NCBI GenBank assembly: GCA_900175165.2
Contig: FWWN02000670.1
Span: forward strand, 125,511 to 189,510
From: Rhizomucor pusillus
Lineage: Eukaryota > Mucoromycota > Mucoromycetes > Mucorales > Lichtheimiaceae
Direction of reading: 5' to 3'
DNA: 64,000 bases
The notes below the pieces were generated by a model, which searched no databases, was not told where the DNA came from, and saw only the letters and a program-made list of their open reading frames with translations. Of this stretch, positions 35,042 through 50,700 are shown piece after piece. Positions within the stretch are counted from its first letter, which is position 1. Every line of letters begins with the position of its first letter. The translations under genes and the position numbers were made by a program.

Positions 35042-36948
35042 ATGCACCCGCGACCTCGGTCTGAAGTTATCGATCCGAGGAAGAATACTTCCGGCGATCG
35101 TAAGTAACTTGAATTTGCATCGTAGAAACTGCATTTGGTCTCCTAATCCTCTCGTGAACAGCCGACAAGGGAAACAGCTGGAGGGAAGACTTACAACACT
35201 ATGAACGCAATCTCGAAGCTATGACTTCAATGAATTTGGATCAGGTATGCTTTGCTAGAATGCTTGAAAGGAAGTCCCTTAACCTTGTATATCTGCAGAG
35301 CTTTAAGGATGAGCTGCATCACGTAGATCAGTGGTTCAGTTTCCTATCAGAAACAGAGAGAACAGCAACTGTTTATACGCTTTTACAACATTCTTCCCAA
35401 GTACAAATACGCTTTTTTATCAGCATACTCCAACAGATGATGAAAAGAGACCCGCTTAATAACTATCTTACACCTGCTAATCCTGACCAAGGTAAGTTTG
35501 TATTGGTACATTGTTCGTGTATAGATGATTTACACACCACCTTTGCAACCGGCAGACATGCAATCACATTTGACGAACGCTATGGCAAAAGCAGAGCTGG
35601 AAGCCAATCAAAGACTCTTGGCAGCAGCTGGCCAGGGGATCCGCCGACCTCCAAGCGCTGGTGCTCGTGGGCAAGGAACTTCATCCATGGATCGACATTC
35701 CTTTGCATTGGGCGATACCGAGGATTACGCGCAACTTATGAATTCCATGGGAACATTGTCGCTGAACAATGGTGGTTTGGAGGATTATGCACGGATACAG
35801 ATTCCTCGCTCCACGGCACGTTCAGCTGCAGGAAACCAATCCATGTTTGCCAACCGCAGCCGCCCACATTCCGTTATTGAGGGTGATACGTCGTTGCTGT
35901 TCCCAACAAGCAGTGGCACATGGCTGAATCCGGCGCCGCAGCAACGATCTTCAATGACTGGTACGATTGGCCGTATGGGATCGGCTGCAGAGCGACCCAA
36001 GTCTGCCGATATTTCTCTGTGGACGCTCCCATCATTAGATATTAGCAGCGAAGATGCTGTGGCGAAGAAGAGAGGAGCAGGAGGAGGAGCAGCAGCGGCA
36101 GGTGGAGCAAACAACTCGCTGCGACCTGCTGGCTGGGGTGCTCCATCTACCATGCAATTTGGAGACTTGTCCTCTCGCCACTTGGACGTGGATCTCGACT
36201 TCAACAGCTGGGAGAAACGGCGACGCGCTGGGCGCAATATACCTAACACGGTTCCGGAAACCGACGAAAGAAACAATGCATCTTCATCCACCTCTGCAGC
36301 AGTCGATGCTGCCAACGTAGTCTTATCATCATACGACCAACCGATGCGTCGTGCTCACTCACCCGTACCGTCTGCGTCTGCGTCTGCACCGTTCAGTCGA
36401 CGACACTTGGCACCACCTGGCATGGAACAGCGCTACGGCCAGTTCTTGAATCCAAATGATGCACAAGCTTTTGAAGAATATGACTATCTAAGTGACCACA
36501 GCGAGGCTTCCAACGTATCTGGCGACCGAGGCCATCACCGTCGCCGTGGCGGTCGCGGTGGTGGACATGGCAATACAGGCGGTCGTACACCTAAAGATAA
36601 AAAGCCTGGTGATGTGGTTGATATGGAATTACTGGAAGGTAACATATAAGAAAGTTTCCACGATACCGGAAACGTTAACTCAAACAACTGAAGATGTTCC
36701 TGCCTGGTTCAGAACACTTCGATTGCACAAGTACAACAACATTTTTGAGTCCATGAAGTGGCAAGATATCATTAAACTTACGGACGAGGAATTGGAAGCT
36801 AAAGGAGTTGCTGCGTTGGGCGCGAGACGCAAGATGCTGAAGGTCTTTGAACAGGTCAAATCGCACTGTGAAGCAAATGTAAGTTAAATTACTTGATATG
36901 ATGCTGTCCTGTTTCCTGACTTTGCGCTTTTAGAACATCAAATACTAG
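35042..36948 (+). CDS. VTS1: SAM-domain RNA-binding protein Vts1/Smaug-like
   Basis: Exons 35042-35099, 35162-35244, 35299-35491, 35556-36638, 36694-36878, 36934-36948; 538 residues. The N-terminus has the Vts1 SSR-like helical region ([48 protein letters not shown]). A long disordered Ser/Gly/Ala-rich middle follows, with RGG-like repeats ([11 protein letters not shown]). The C-terminal SAM domain reads [17 protein letters not shown], then [20 protein letters not shown] and [16 protein letters not shown]. Family knowledge: Vts1/Smaug SAM domains bind CNGG hairpins and recruit CCR4-NOT to repress mRNAs. The last exon is only 15 nt; if that intron is retained the protein ends three residues earlier or so, with little effect. 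Confidence 0.88.
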
Positions 36949-37319
36949 GATACAACTTCTTTTATCACTTTTTTTTTTTTATTTTTCTAAAACTTTTATT
37001 TCACACACCCACACCCACACACACACTCTCTCTCTCTTTCTCTTTCTCTCGACTTAACAACATCTTTTTTGTTGCGAAATCTCTGTTAATTGGATAGCGC
37101 AAGACGCTGTCTGAAGATACAAAACTCAAGGCTTCTCTTCTTTTTGTTTTTATCTCTTTTAGTCCAAAGAATACAATTTCTTCGTTGTTTGCTACGATGA
37201 TACGTGCAACGAGGCGCGAAAAATTCACCCTCCGCGAAATTGTGAAATAGAGGCGCGGCGTCGTGTCCCTCTTTTCTTCTTTACCCTGGCTCGTCTCGAG
37301 ACTATGGCTCATTTTAACC

Positions 37320-37720
37320 CGCAACACCGAACGAACGAGACCGGCACAATGGGGTCTTCATGCATTTGTCTAACCCTAAACATTTAGCTTGGGTCCCTTT
37401 GACGGAACGATTGAGGCGGCGTGATTCAAGGGAAAGGTGGCGCTCCTTGACTGCGAGTCCCAAGTCCACGACGTGGCTGTACGGCCAAGCTGCTTTCGGT
37501 CTGATCAACCGAGAGTGACGAAGGGTAGCTCCCTTTGTCCAATCGCGTGGCAGATTCCTGGAGTTGGCCAACCAAGTAGCATCCGTCTGCTTTCAAAAGT
37601 TCACGGTAACTGGTCAGCCGGATACCCGTGTCATACTTACCCCCCGTGGTTGCACGCTCGCGTAGTCTCTTGGTCTTTGGTGGTTCGGGGCATTTTGGCC
37701 TTGAGAGACGTAAGTAACAA
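37320..37720 (+). ncRNA. candidate structured non-coding RNA with telomerase-template-like 12-mer
   Basis: No credible coding frame. CTAACCCTAAAC at 37370-37381 is two partial copies of the complement of TTAGGG, the form of a telomerase RNA template. Downstream are strong hairpins: CTTGGG/CCCAAG (37388-37393 with 37459-37464), CTTTCGGT/ACCGAGAG (37493-37500, 37508-37515), GACGAAGGG/CCCTTTGTC (37517-37525, 37531-37539). A three-way junction closes with TACTTAC/GTAAGTA (37634-37640, 37710-37716), containing CGTG-GTTG-CACG (37645-37656) and GTCTCT/AGAGAC (37665-37670, 37704-37709). An Sm-site-like ATTTTGG (37692-37698) sits 11 bases before a 5' splice site-like GTAAGT (37710), the arrangement used for spliceosomal 3'-end formation of some fungal telomerase RNAs. 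Ends are guesses; no conserved pseudoknot was confirmed. Confidence 0.4.
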
Positions 37721-37900
37721 AAGCCCTGATCGCGCAGGAAGCCCGTTCGCATTGAAGTTTTGGTTCGGTGCCTTTGTGTCGTCCATTTCGTTCGTTCATT
37801 GGTTGCACACTTTGTCGGTAGCTTTGGATCAAGGCATTCTTGGCTGTGTCAATGGAAATGGATCATGTTAAGTTCTCTAACTGGCATTTTACTCACTGAC

Positions 37901-38055
37901 GGGCATACCCTGAAGGCCTCTCTCTTGCCTAGCGATTGAGACAGAGCTTCGGCTCGTGCTGGATAGTATGTTACGGGTGGTAATCAGCTCACTATACGGG
38001 GCTGGATCCCGTGGAAATTGGCTAAGGCCTGGGTGTCCCAAAGCGTACCTTTTTT
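37901..38055 (+). ncRNA. candidate compact four-way-junction RNA ending at oligo-T
   Basis: A closing stem pairs ACCC+AGGCCT (37907-37910, 37914-37919) with AGGCCT+GGGT (38025-38034), continued inward by TAGC/GCTA (37930-37933, 38021-38024) and ATT/AAT. Inside lie three hairpins: GAGC-TTCG-GCTC (37944-37955, a UUCG tetraloop); ATAGT/ACTAT (37963-37967, 37991-37995) enclosing TTAC-GGGTG-GTAA; and ACGGG/CCCGT (37996-38000, 38008-38012). The strand ends with two T6 tracts, as RNA polymerase III transcripts do. Size about 155 nt. It does not match 5S, U6, SRP or tRNA by eye. CTGAAGGCCT and ACGGGGCT recall RNase MRP/P RNA elements, but the remaining core is not convincing. It may also be the 3' part of one long RNA with the upstream element. 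Confidence 0.4.
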
Positions 38056-38063
38056 ACTTTTTT
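38050..38063 (+). terminator. double oligo-T tract (possible Pol III terminator)
   Basis: Two T6 runs separated by AC directly follow the folded unit above. T6 terminates RNA polymerase III efficiently in fungi. Confidence 0.4.
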
Positions 38064-38643
38064 CCCCTTCGATGCCAAGGCAGGTCTTCGTCCTGAAGGG
38101 GATGGATCCATCAGTTGCCGATGGTGAACTAAGACCTTGGCCCAAAGGTAAGAAGACTTTTCCTTTGAAATAAATGTGCACAATTGGTATATGAAAGAAA
38201 GGCACCTTTATCGATGGTGATGAGAATCACGGCAATGCAGCTTCAGTTCCACTGTGTATTGGATCGCGTTGTCCCACCATTTCCGAGTTTCCGAAGCATT
38301 GTATTCGTGTCTGAGATGATTCAGCATTTAATAGCCTTGTAGGGGATAACGGCTTAACGATCGCAACGCTGATACTCGCTTGTTAAGTCTGATTATAATC
38401 GTTTCCAATAATCAATTTGATTGTAGTCGCAAGCTTAGAAAGCCTCGTTTATTTATTTTACATTACCAAATAAACAGACGTTATTATCACCAGCGAATTG
38501 CTTTCGTTGTTGTTGACATTGCCGTTCGCCGGAGTCTATGCGGAAGTTTAACGGAGAAGGTTTTGTCCACAGTTGCACACACACGCAGTTATTTTCTCCT
38601 CCTTTTTTTCATTCTTTCTCAACCTTCCGTTTCTGCAACAAAC
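38064..38643. other. further foldable sequence and GH8 promoter
   Basis: Contains an interrupted hairpin GCCAA...GGTCTT / AAGACCTTGGC (38074-38088 with 38131-38141), a GNRA-type hairpin GTGAT-GAGA-ATCAC (38217-38230) and a splice-donor-like GGTAAGA (38147). From about 38570 it becomes a pyrimidine-rich leader of the GH8 gene. No coding frame. Confidence 0.4.
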
Positions 38644-40173
38644 ATGGATAGTGTCGAACAGACTTATGTTCAGTGGCGCACAAAGTACGTTTCTTGCATT
38701 TTTACATGGCGGTGACGTTGGAGCCATTGGTTCGGTAGACAACCACGAGTGACACGTTTTTCTCTCGCTTTGCATAGATACCTGCGGTCGTACCAGGATG
38801 GCTTGTATGTATACTACAAGGAGCCCTCAGAAAATGTGCCTGAAATGACCTGCTCTGAGGCGCATGGTAACGAGCTTTGAAAAAATTTATGGTGTGATGG
38901 CTAATGTAACTGACGTTGTCCCGAATATCCAGGTTACGGCATGCTTATTTCCGTCTTGAAGCGCAACCAAATGGATTTTGATGGTACGAGGAGGATAACA
39001 TCTTGGTTTTTCTCACCGTGGTCTTTAATTACATTACTCTACAGGGCTTTACCGATATTTCATGCGATGGCGTAACGAAAAGGGATTAATGCAGTATGTT
39101 GTGCTTCACAAGACGCGTAGCAAAGTGCACGTTCCACTTAAAGATAACATTGCGTCATAGGTGGCAACAAAAGTGCACGCATTCTGGAGAGTTTGTACCG
39201 GGCGACGAAGGAGGTCGAAATTGTGCCACAGGTAAAAAGAGAGAGAGAGAGAGGCTATGCTTCAATTTATAGTTGAACATGTTAACAGCTAAACAATTTT
39301 CCAGACGGCGACGTGGATATAGCAACCGCTCTATTTTTAGCTGCCAAGATATGGGGTCGTGGAGGACAGCATGGCGAAATTGACTATAGGCAAACGGCGG
39401 TCGAACTGGCAGCGGCTGTTTGGGAACATTGTTTCAATCACGAGACCTACATGCCGTTGGTTGGCGACTGGGCAGACCCTGGAGATGATGCCTATTTACT
39501 GACCCGTCCGAGTGATTTTATTCTAAGTGGATATCTTATATTCTACCAAGTAAGGCCACGAGATGAAACAGCTATTATCTGTACATCTGAATTGTTGATG
39601 GCAATTATTTTTATACTTTGCTGCTAGGAAGACACAGCTCGACAGCAGCAATGGGGTCAAGTTGTCAATAACATTATCAATACTGTAAACGGCCAATTGT
39701 CAATGAATCCGCAGACAGGTCTAATTGCCGACTTTTTAAAGCTCGATCCAAGCAGCAAGCTTTACTATCCAGCTCGCGGAGAAGTTTTAGAAAGCGATCA
39801 CGATGGCGACTACAACTGGAACTCTTGCAGAGTGCCGTGGCGTCTAGGTCATTATTACATGTTGACTCGGGACGAACGTATCCGAGGCGTTTTGGAGACA
39901 CAGGCACAATTCTTTGCAGCACAGCTTGCACAGCGCGGTGTTTGTGCGAACGGAGACTGCGGCGTGCGAGCTGGATACCATTTGAGCGGCCACTGCTACG
40001 TTGATTACACAGATATGGCTTTCGTGGCACCGGTCAGCTTCTTGTTCTGGGTACTTGGATGGAACAATCAGTTGCAGCATATTTTGCAGGATATGAATGC
40101 CATGCAAGAAAAGACTTACTTTGGTGAAAGCATAGCCATGCTCTGCTTGTTAGAAGCACATGTACCTTTTTAA
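38644..40173 (+). CDS. glycoside hydrolase family 8 protein
   Basis: Seven exons: 38644-38684, 38778-38866, 38933-38983, 39045-39093, 39161-39231, 39305-39549, 39628-40173; 363 residues. GH8 landmarks in order: MTCSEAHGYGMLISVL (Glu is the expected general acid), DGDVDIATALFLAAKIWG (Asp near the cleavage site), DWADP, TRPSDFILSGY, DYNWNSCRVPWRLGHYY and YVDYTDMAF. Family knowledge: GH8 enzymes cleave beta-1,4 glucans, chitosan, xylan or lichenan and are mostly bacterial. I see no signal peptide from ATG 38644, although the pyrimidine-rich leader happens to be open and hydrophobic in frame without an ATG; a missed 5' exon could add one. Six introns and normal splice sites show it is fungal DNA, not contamination. 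Substrate unknown. Confidence 0.85.
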
Positions 40174-47791: not shown

Positions 47792-50700
47792 GGTAGTGTG
47801 GACGACGATGTAGGAAAGAAAGAAGTGTAAATAAACAAAAGGGCGTTGACAGCAAAGGTTTAAATATGTTTGTGTCCTAGCGGCTTTGATTTGACGGGAA
47901 TCATCACGAGCGCAAAGTTTTGTGAAACAAGCTTTTTGGGCAATTTCTGCTAGGAAAGGAAGTTTGTACCTCGGTAACACAGACCTGCACGGTTCAGCAA
48001 AGAAGAAAAAACTCTCCTCCCAAATCACAAGGCAAAAACTATTCTGGATTCTGACACACACACACACAAAAAATTGCCCGCGGCTTTACCTTGCAACAAG
48101 GAAAAAACGTCAAACCATGCAATATTGCGGAATAAAAATATATACCTTCGAACGAGAAAAAAAGAACTCAAGGTTCTTAGGGATGAATTATTGTCTTTTG
48201 ACGTTCATGCAGAAACAGGAAACTATTCCCAAATACGAATTTCAACAGAAACTCCTTAGTTTCTTTGGTGCGCTTTTTCTCAATGGTCGACGGTTCATCC
48301 ATCAGGCAGGTTTTACCAAATATGTTAATCCAGCGTATCTCGTGGGGGGCTGTAGTGGTAAAGCTATATTTCTATATACTTCAATTCGTCAATTGAGCCT
48401 CAGCGCGGATGTAGATATACACTGCGTATGCCAAGACACCTCACTCTGACTTCCTCTCGACAGAAATACTAAATATTTTGAAGGCATCCCACAGAGCTCT
48501 GCTTTTCAAATATCTGTCGAGAAAAGGAGAAGCAGTAATAATAATCGGGGGATACACCAGATCACCTATTTTGTGTTCGTATTCCTTCTTGTCATCCCTA
48601 TCGCACGCAATACGTTCCTGTTGTTACAAAAGATAAAACATTGGTCGTTTCCTGGGCATCTATCCTCCTTCGGCGCTTGCAATGCATGTTGCACATTCGT
48701 AAATGGTTTAGCCAATGAGCTACATGAGCCGTCTCCCACGATTATAGTCTCGATGGCTGTACGTTTCGCAACAGAATAGTTCGACTCTAGCTGACCATAT
48801 CATTCCATTCTCTTTTTCTTTTTCTGCTACATTTTTACACCATTCGACTCTGGCTTTTGATAGGAGCAAATCGGGATTGCGGACTCGATAACTGGGCCAA
48901 ATTGGGCCGCACTTTGGATTGTGATCCTATTTACCGCGTTAGGGAAACTAGGTATGACAAAGGTCAGAAGATTCCAAAAGTCTCACGCCTCTCAAATGTT
49001 CCTCCCTCTCTCCCCCCCAAAAATCCTCTTCAATGTTCCGCAGTGGTGGGTCGGTGGACCCTTCCCCTTGGCACGCGTCAAAAAGTCCAGTATCCAGGAA
49101 TATGTTTGATAAGAATTATCAAGTGACCCCCTCTGCTTTCAGCGATCTGGGTTGGCTGCGAGACTGACGGAGGGGGAAAAACAGAATGATTTCCATGGAA
49201 GCAACGGAAATCGTTCCGCCTGCCTTTCCATGTTTCCTAGCACTAGCAGCAGCAGCGTAGCCACCAGCAGCAGCAGCAGCAGCACTCTCCGATATGACGG
49301 AATACCAATCAGCACTCGTCAATGGGTCGCTGATTGATTTGCCTTCTCTCTCGGTATTTACCCCGCAACCTCAGTTGACTCATTTCGTAGTAACCTCTCA
49401 TCATCATCCCATCGTTGACCTCCTTCTAAATATACAACAATGTACCTTTTTCGGTGTTTTCGAGCACGGACTTGAATCTGTGGAATTTTGCTTATACAGT
49501 TAAAACTGATGTGCAGTAGCAGTAAGAGATCATCTTCTAGTGGCAACCCGCGGATTATCTCGTCTGTTTATATCCACAAACGACCATGGGGATTTATTAT
49601 TTTCAAGGTCTGCTAGTCATACGTTCCACCATCACAAGGAATCTGCAGCACCACCACTATACTTTCTTTGCGATAATATCAGGATACATTACATTCGTCC
49701 CTATCACTGGAGAATTTCTTCAAAGCGTACTCTACAGGAGCGATAATGTCGCCAATGAAACATCCGCGTTGTAAGAATTGTAACAGGCAATGTAGATGCA
49801 GGTACAAAGGTATTCGCAATTTTTCCATCATGTGACGCACAGTGCCGCAGTCAACTTATTAGGTCAGCATATTCATAAACAGTATAGTCGATTCGCTTCT
49901 TTAGCATTCGCTTACGCAAGTACAGTGCTGGAAGTTGAATTTGATCAACCACCTCACCCAAATTGAGCCAGCCAAGCCCTAAAGATGGATCTTGCCGTTC
50001 AAATTCAACTTCCAGCACTGTAATCATGTACAGCTTGAGCAATTTCTGTCAGTCTCTCCTATTACGTATCTTGAAACTCTCCACGCCAATTGCTGCCCTT
50101 CCCCCCACCACACTCTGTATAAATATCTCACTGTCATTACCATTATTCTACATCTTGCGCAATAAAGTCCACACTAATAGAAAAAAAAAGTTCGCCACAA
50201 CCGATGAAGACCAGCAGCGCCAGGATATTGCTTCGATGTGGACAGACAGCTTGCTTCTGGATGATGCGCCTTCGGGCAACAAGCCAGTCACTGCCTATGA
50301 GTGTTCCGCTCACGTACTTCGCCGGTATTGGGCCTGCTTTTTATACACGGTTCGTGCGTTTAAAGATTTACATGGAAAACAAGACAGATGACATGAAAAC
50401 GTTCAAAGAAGAAAAGTAAAAAGTGCACGTATCTGATGGTCGCCTGGACGCGAAAAAAAGAAGCAATACAGGAATAGTAACCAATTGAATGAAATTGGGA
50501 TAGATATACTCGTCGTATGAGCTGCTGTCACTGTATATATCGCTGAGCCTGTTATACCATTTTCCAATCTCCAACTCAAGCCAGCCATACTTATTCCCAG
50601 CGTTAGGACGACATCCTTGTGGGAGGCCCAACCTGGTCATGCTGATGATCAACATCACTGTCATTGGGAGCCTTGTCAAATAAATTTTCCGGCAAGTCTT

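Follow-up and report, generated by a model that had tools for sequence, protein, structure and literature searches.

A candidate telomerase RNA in the VTS1-GH8 gap of Rhizomucor pusillus

Introduction

In vertebrates, the telomerase RNA template is CUAACCCUAA. The vertebrate template boundary is made of two parts: a helix stops a few bases short of the template, and the opposite strand of this helix lies just past helix P3 (PMC3603654). The sections of the same paper that deal with Aspergillus describe RNAs of about 1590-2130 nt with TTAGGG-type templates having end repeats of 3-6 nt (two species have the human CUAACCCUAAC), a yeast-like boundary helix, a U-tract close to the 3' terminus and an Sm tract with a 5' splice site beside it. 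The Ustilago RNA is intergenic, with the template at 385-393 and the pseudoknot at 730-780 (PMC10035886), and the likewise intergenic Malassezia RNA has a helix enclosing the core and an Sm-like site (PMC12506658). According to the relevant passages of these two papers, both RNAs rest on the comparison of many species.

Rhizomucor belongs to the family Lichtheimiaceae, as does Lichtheimia corymbifera. For the latter fungus, a ciliate-like telomerase RNA candidate was suggested in 2014; in the corresponding passage it is likened to the shortest ciliate RNAs of ~150 nt and has no homologs in another basal fungus (PMC4133162). In view of this suggestion, the statement of an earlier note on the present locus that no telomerase RNA was known to have been described from the group is not quite right. 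It is the only suggestion found in the open-licence literature searched, in which no telomerase RNA is established for Mucoromycota.

Here we analyze a region of the + strand, ~37320-38150, located between VTS1 and a GH8-like gene of Rhizomucor pusillus, which probably encodes the telomerase RNA of this fungus. The elements shown by computation are the sequence of a template, a pseudoknot of the telomerase type, and a helix around both in a vertebrate-like place. The proposed template is identical to that of vertebrates; helix P1b ends 6 bases before it, and the other strand of P1b starts 4 bases after P3. The human RNA likewise has P3 ending in U-A pairs and a U-rich loop 1. Unlike the vertebrate RNA, the candidate has 281 bases between the template and the pseudoknot, no clear CR4/5 and no match to RF00024. 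With Aspergillus it shares the TTAGGG-type template and a U-tract of similar form near the 3' end, but it is shorter (~780-870 nt), has the P1b-type boundary and lacks a splice site adjoining the tract. With the Ustilago RNA it has in common the intergenic location and a template followed at some distance by a pseudoknot, and with that of Malassezia the intergenic location, the core-enclosing helix and a possible Sm-like site, whereas in contrast to both of them it is known from one species.

Results

Genomic setting, telomere repeat and TERT

The window, i.e. the whole stretch of DNA that was analyzed, is the final 64 kb of contig C14 in an assembly of 24.45 Mb and 353 contigs. VTS1, named from its SAM domain and its relatives, has its stop codon at 36948, and the ATG of the GH8-like gene is at 38644, both on the + strand; the gap between them measures 1695 bases, in agreement with the 1.7 kb reported earlier. 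The named VTS1 relatives are Mucorales, near Lichtheimia, Fennellomyces, Zychaea and Circinella (81 matches, one at 98%, none of them an R. pusillus entry, possibly owing to length limits in the search). The GH8 label is that of the earlier note, and the exon of this gene that was tried has no Pfam match. Within the gap, the block 37201-38160 is G+C-rich (0.518, with flanks at 0.335 and 0.406), and this richness would make its hairpins stable. Other G+C-rich stretches with low coding scores are present in the window, so that the block is no exception.

TERT is found in the same genome, two of its exons matching PF12009 above the cut-off (contig C28). As for the telomere repeat, both TTAGGG x3 and CCCTAAACCCTAAA are absent from the readable assembly, and no TTAGGG or TTTAGGG arrays were found there, in searches that may skip simple repeats. 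A single TTAGGG x2 in the assembly lies inside an apparent gene. No telomere-like tandem repeat was detected in 39 contig ends, some of which are masked, and no TnAGGG arrays in the readable assembly except one internal TAGGGG run. This short run (L075, ~1500-1525; G000:C25:26253-26275) is part of a more extended, repetitive G-rich region, and the sequence continues for at least 1.4 kb on either side. Mucor CBS 277.49, from the same order, has TTAGGG telomeres (PMC11258239), and this repeat is widely conserved in Mucoromycota according to the pertinent part of a review (PMC7952879). A TTTAGGG reading by analogy with Umbelopsis nana, for which the telomere is given as AAACCCT, i.e. TTTAGGG (PMC13042297), was rejected because the organism is probably Rhizomucor, to judge from the exact protein match of the antisense ORF, and because arrays of this repeat did not turn up, although AACCCUAAAC would serve for TTTAGGG as well.

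Covariance searches, to which the earlier note had looked for confirmation, did not provide it. Rfam telomerase models gave no match in the window or in the gap at either gathering or relaxed thresholds, and the only relaxed match to any Rfam family was a lincRNA at chance level. Over the genome, RF00024 and RF02462 gave no match among the first-look candidates that were scored (27 of 61 and 2 of 2513, respectively). These models are built on other groups, and the Ascomycota model matched in no control genome.

Template

The earlier note had reported a 12-mer in the form of a template for TTAGGG, and CTAACCCTAAAC is indeed present as an exact match (Table 1). It contains CUAACCCUAA, which can be read as a single TTAGGG repeat together with a second CUAA that would serve alignment. 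Assuming TTAGGG, the template is longer than one repeat and shorter than two (6 + 4 nt), with its ends repeated. Its mean unpaired probability is 0.60 compared to 0.37 for the whole RNA, and ACCC at 37373-37376 is mostly paired in the nested fold.

Table 1. Features of the candidate telomerase RNA and of the opposite strand, in window coordinates
Feature	Position	Strand	Basis or remark
P1a 5' strand: GCAAC; GAACGAACGAGA; CGGCACAA	37321..37349	+	pairs with 37774-37806
P1b 5' strand GGG-U-CUUC-A-UGC, proposed template boundary	37352..37363	+	pairs with 37734-37744
Linker AUUUGU, 6 nt, from P1b to template	37364..37369	+	unpaired probability 0.86-0.98
Proposed template CUAACCCUAAAC	37370..37381	+	exact match
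Insert between template and pseudoknot, several hairpins	37382..37662	+	fold only
Antisense ORF, hypothetical protein VTP01DRAFT_8288	37426..37752	-	annotated in R. pusillus; coding score -0.032
P2 5' strand UAGUCUCUUGG	37663..37673	+	scan; 9-bp core 37665-37673 / 37701-37709
Loop 1 UCUUUGGUGGU	37674..37684	+	scan
P3 5' strand UCGGGGCAUUUU, A bulge	37685..37696	+	scan and unconstrained folds
P2 3' strand UUGAGAGACGUA, taking in the start of the 5' splice site proposed in the earlier note	37701..37712	+	scan
Loop 2 AGUAAC	37713..37718	+	scan
P3 3' strand AAAAGCCCUGA	37719..37729	+	scan and folds
P1b 3' strand, begins 4 nt after P3	37734..37744	+	folds
P1a 3' strand: UUGUGUCG; UUUCGUUCGUUC; GUUGC	37774..37806	+	folds
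Expected CR4/5 region; one UUNG-loop hairpin GAGC-UUCG-GCUC at 37944-37955	37807..38047	+	scan
Possible Sm-like tract CCUUUUUUACUUUUUU	38048..38063	+	resembles Aspergillus CGGC3-5U7-12; weak
Stable 3' hairpin UCCCCUUCG / UGAAGGGGA	38063..38102	+	sampled pair 0.96
AATAAA, possible polyadenylation signal	38169..38174	+	sequence scan

The motif alone is weak evidence by arithmetic: the earlier estimate that a ten-base match of TTAGGG type occurs by chance about once per 64 kb (six permutations, both strands) is about right. TTAGGGTTAG occurs once in the window, with 0.06 copies expected and at least one copy in 6 of 100 shuffles. In the readable genome, the rival template words gave, among the matches listed, 12 places for CTAACCCTAA, 19 for AACCCTAAAC, 10 for TAACCCTAAC, 6 for CCTAACCCTA and 44 for ACCCTAACC, amounting to 79 distinct places; the survey left out the permutation CCCTAACCCT without a preceding A, shorter templates and masked stretches. 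Genome-wide, the template-like words are several-fold rarer than their own reversals (12 vs 51, 19 vs 72, 10 vs 47, and for the further words 6 vs 43 and 44 vs 151).

Two of these places deserve a mention of their own. At L026 (~1450-1524), CTAACCCTAA stands at the branch-point place in a putative intron of a peroxidase-like gene, so the template word can apparently arise in introns. The longer TTTGTCTAACCCTAA resembles the vertebrate template context, but it is also present at L026 and carries no weight. At L056 (~1488-1525), read in the AACCCTAAAC orientation, two CCCTAAA-like units are followed a few bases on by TTTAGGGT in AT-rich surroundings, making up an inverted telomere-like motif.

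Pseudoknot

A telomerase-type H-type pseudoknot is possible at ~37663-37729, consisting of P2, a U-rich loop 1, P3 ending in UUUU/AAAA and an A-rich loop 2. Judged by its letters, it would be able to form U-A.U triples. The scan behind the following figures required a U-rich loop 1 with UUU, P3 ending in UUU/AAA, an A-rich loop 2 and scores above thresholds, permitting one bulge per helix and a loop 1 of up to 14 nt. Since it was written after the helix had been spotted by eye, its figures should be discounted at least tenfold. At the strict setting, the pseudoknot is the single match on both strands of the window. Other loci, totalling 318,416 strand-bases with overlaps counted, have no match, and one match came up in 15 shuffles of one window strand. 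Local shuffles of 779 bases contained a match in 2 of 8000 cases at the strict setting, in 30 at the middle one and in 95 at the loosest. The two looser settings gave 3 and 11 matches in the window and 3 and 8 in other loci. The score of the pseudoknot, 44, is the highest, the loosest setting giving others of 43 and 42; the human telomerase RNA pseudoknot was recovered by the same scan, also with a score of 44.

When the scan was extended to the template-like loci (over 1510 bases downstream, or 800 in the case of ACCCTAACC), a strict match was found at the candidate and at none of the 78 others. One further locus, L062, had a weak match (score 30) at the loosest setting. A telomerase RNA with a differently shaped pseudoknot would escape the scan. 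A stricter earlier version (loop 1 of at most 11 nt, half U, no bulge) found a pseudoknot neither here nor at 11 further loci, and 4 of 84 background windows contained a match. The sampled pair of P3 has a probability of 1.0 in each of four nested folds made without constraints. The probability of P2 is 0 in nested folds, which is required of a pseudoknot and proves nothing.

Enclosing helix and template boundary

Both the template and the pseudoknot are enclosed by a long helix, P1, which stops short of the template by the length of the linker (Table 1). P1a, P1b and P3 all appear in unconstrained folds with four different boundaries, the sampled pairs being 0.98-1.0 for P1a and 0.88-0.95 for P1b (0.92-1.0 over both in these folds, the value of 0.88 belonging to one further P1b pair). 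A Watson-Crick run as long as that of P1a (10 bp) was equalled in 8 of 1000 shuffles and in 1 of 300 in another set, and the 12-bp run with G-U allowed in 31 of 300. The duplex energy of P1 is only mildly unusual: among 500 shuffles 34 are as good, as are 8 of 420 genomic pairs. From its predicted position upstream of the template, P1b is a plausible template boundary helix.

3' part and ends

Folds and a hairpin scan of 37807-38047 revealed no convincing CR4/5 or P6.1 three-way junction, and the hairpin at 37944-37955 has a UUCG tetraloop of the ordinary kind. The MFE fold contained a long arm upstream of the U-tract (37821-37827/38038-38044), which was rejected, its sampled pair having a probability of only 0.02-0.19. 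The possible Sm-like tract is atypical: it is unlike the yeast consensus and has no 5' splice site adjoining it. GTAAGA is found at 38148. We place the ends of the predicted RNA near 37300 and 38100-38190, giving a length of about 780-870 nt.

Discussion

Telomerase RNA appears to us the likely, and the best-supported, reading of the VTS1-GH8 gap. The central guess of the earlier note thereby stands, but most of the reasons given for it do not: fold energy turned out to be ordinary, the processing motifs fit the pseudoknot better, and it is other elements that carry the case. If transcribed, the candidate RNA would probably be made by RNA polymerase II, since runs of U4 and U6 lie inside it. 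It would bind TERT, and the pseudoknot would assist in keeping the template in the active site. On CUAACCCUAA, TERT would synthesize TTAGGG, the CUAA repeated at both template ends would realign the telomere end after every repeat, and helix P1b, 6 bases upstream, would halt copying at the 5' end of the template.

It is tempting to go one step further, although we regard the following combination as tentative, its failure in some part being slightly the more probable outcome. Mucorales would have a vertebrate-type core of template and pseudoknot in which P1b closes over the pseudoknot, whereas Aspergillus has a yeast-like boundary; P1b would be older than the split of fungi and animals; and the RNA might be cut from the VTS1 transcript. 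The last part is suggested by the start of the candidate ~370 bases past the VTS1 stop codon on the same strand, and it would resemble the origin of the Ustilago RNA from an mRNA. An mRNA-derived telomerase RNA is attributed to Logeswaran 2022 in a passage of a review (PMC12566771). If the telomerase RNA reading is true, a compact RNA with a vertebrate-like core would help to date the parts inherited from the common ancestor of fungi and animals. It would also close a gap in what is known of the evolution of fungal telomerase RNA, a molecule that changes very fast. In addition, VTS1 would become a synteny anchor for finding telomerase RNA across Mucorales.

The main rival is chance, because our comparison rests on one species. 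According to this explanation, which we consider unlikely but by no means negligible, a template-like 12-mer happens to lie in an ordinary G+C-rich intergenic region, and the pseudoknot and P1 were found because they were sought. The number of template-like loci in the readable genome, the ordinary fold energies and the other low-coding G+C-rich stretches of the window are all consistent with it. So are the recurrence of the 15-mer TTTGTCTAACCCTAA in the putative intron at L026, surely by chance, and the shuffled and genomic sequences that equal the duplex energy of P1. Against it stands the rarity of the pseudoknot, both in local shuffles and among the template-like loci, as well as the fact that P1b and P3 form in folds that are blind to the template.

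An improbable alternative is a minus-strand orphan gene, VTP01DRAFT_8288, that encodes a protein of 91 aa in two exons. Removal of a 51-base minus-strand intron at 37590-37640 (GTAAGT...CTGAC...GAAAG) does yield the annotated protein exactly. However, a word-based search of 5.77 billion proteins found no homolog outside the species, there is no Pfam match, and the coding score of this ORF falls between the two classes, only 8 of 104 coding pieces being as low and 64 of 520 wrong-frame pieces as high. As estimated by hand from the frequency of stop codons, chance alone should produce ORFs of such length in a kilobase this rich in G+C. The gene model may be a misannotation antisense to the candidate RNA, and would likely be one if the telomerase RNA reading holds. 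On the + strand, a 144-aa ORF has a wrong-frame-like score and no Pfam match, and a protein search with it matches itself alone.

Very improbable, in our view, is the telomerase RNA in the form drawn by the earlier note, with an Sm site ATTTTGG, a 3' end produced by splicing at GTAAGT (37710) and a length of ~400 nt. The motifs themselves were confirmed (TACTTAC at 37634-37640, ATTTTGG at 37692-37698, GTAAGTA at 37710-37716), including the spacing of 11 bases between the Sm-like site and GTAAGT. The succession of Sm site, 5' splice site and branch point is the order described for Aspergillus and S. pombe in part of PMC3603654, and CTAAC does follow downstream of GTAAGT at 37877. Though uncommon, the combination of Sm site and donor (AT3-6GR, 0-30 bases, GTAWGT) is not confined to this place: it has 4 matches on both window strands, this site included, and 4 in 504,048 strand-bases of other loci. 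It is commoner than the pseudoknot. Splicing at GTAAGT would cut off the 3' strand of P3 and the 3' halves of P1a and P1b. It would also remove the GTAAGTA half of the three-way junction that the earlier note closed by TACTTAC/GTAAGTA, so that its two claims contradict each other, and the junction conflicts with the better-supported structure. Read on the minus strand, TACTTAC becomes GTAAGTA, the donor used in the R. pusillus gene model. ATTTTGG and GTAAGT find a better place in the pseudoknot, namely at the end of P3, the end of P2 and in loop 2. The weakest explanation, to which we give hardly any credence, takes the 12-mer for the branch point and 3' splice site (CTAAC...TTTAG) of an intron missing from the annotation and belonging to a non-coding transcript or a 5' leader. 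In CTAACCCTAAACATTTAG, the distance from branch point to acceptor agrees with that in 25 putative introns defined by pattern in the window (CTAAC being present in 4 of them), and another place with CTAACCCTAA looks like an intron. However, the only donor-like word in 36901-37369 is GTGCAA at 37204, the donor of VTS1 lies 491 bases upstream at 36879, and P1 and the pseudoknot would be left unexplained.

Folding strength was likewise rejected as evidence for the telomerase RNA. The gap had been described as the one strongly folded non-coding locus, which it is not: in 150-base windows starting at 37301-38101, the + strand has z from -1.01 to +1.86, whereas the minus strand at 38101 reaches -2.66. 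Folded whole, 37300-38160 (861 bases) has z of -0.54, and 7 of 20 shuffles fold as well. The strongest folds of the window lie elsewhere, for example at 49901. There, the segment 49921-50022 contains a perfect 24-base inverted repeat with 54 bases between its arms, giving the strongest fold of the window on both strands; possibly, it is a small mobile element or a hairpin RNA.
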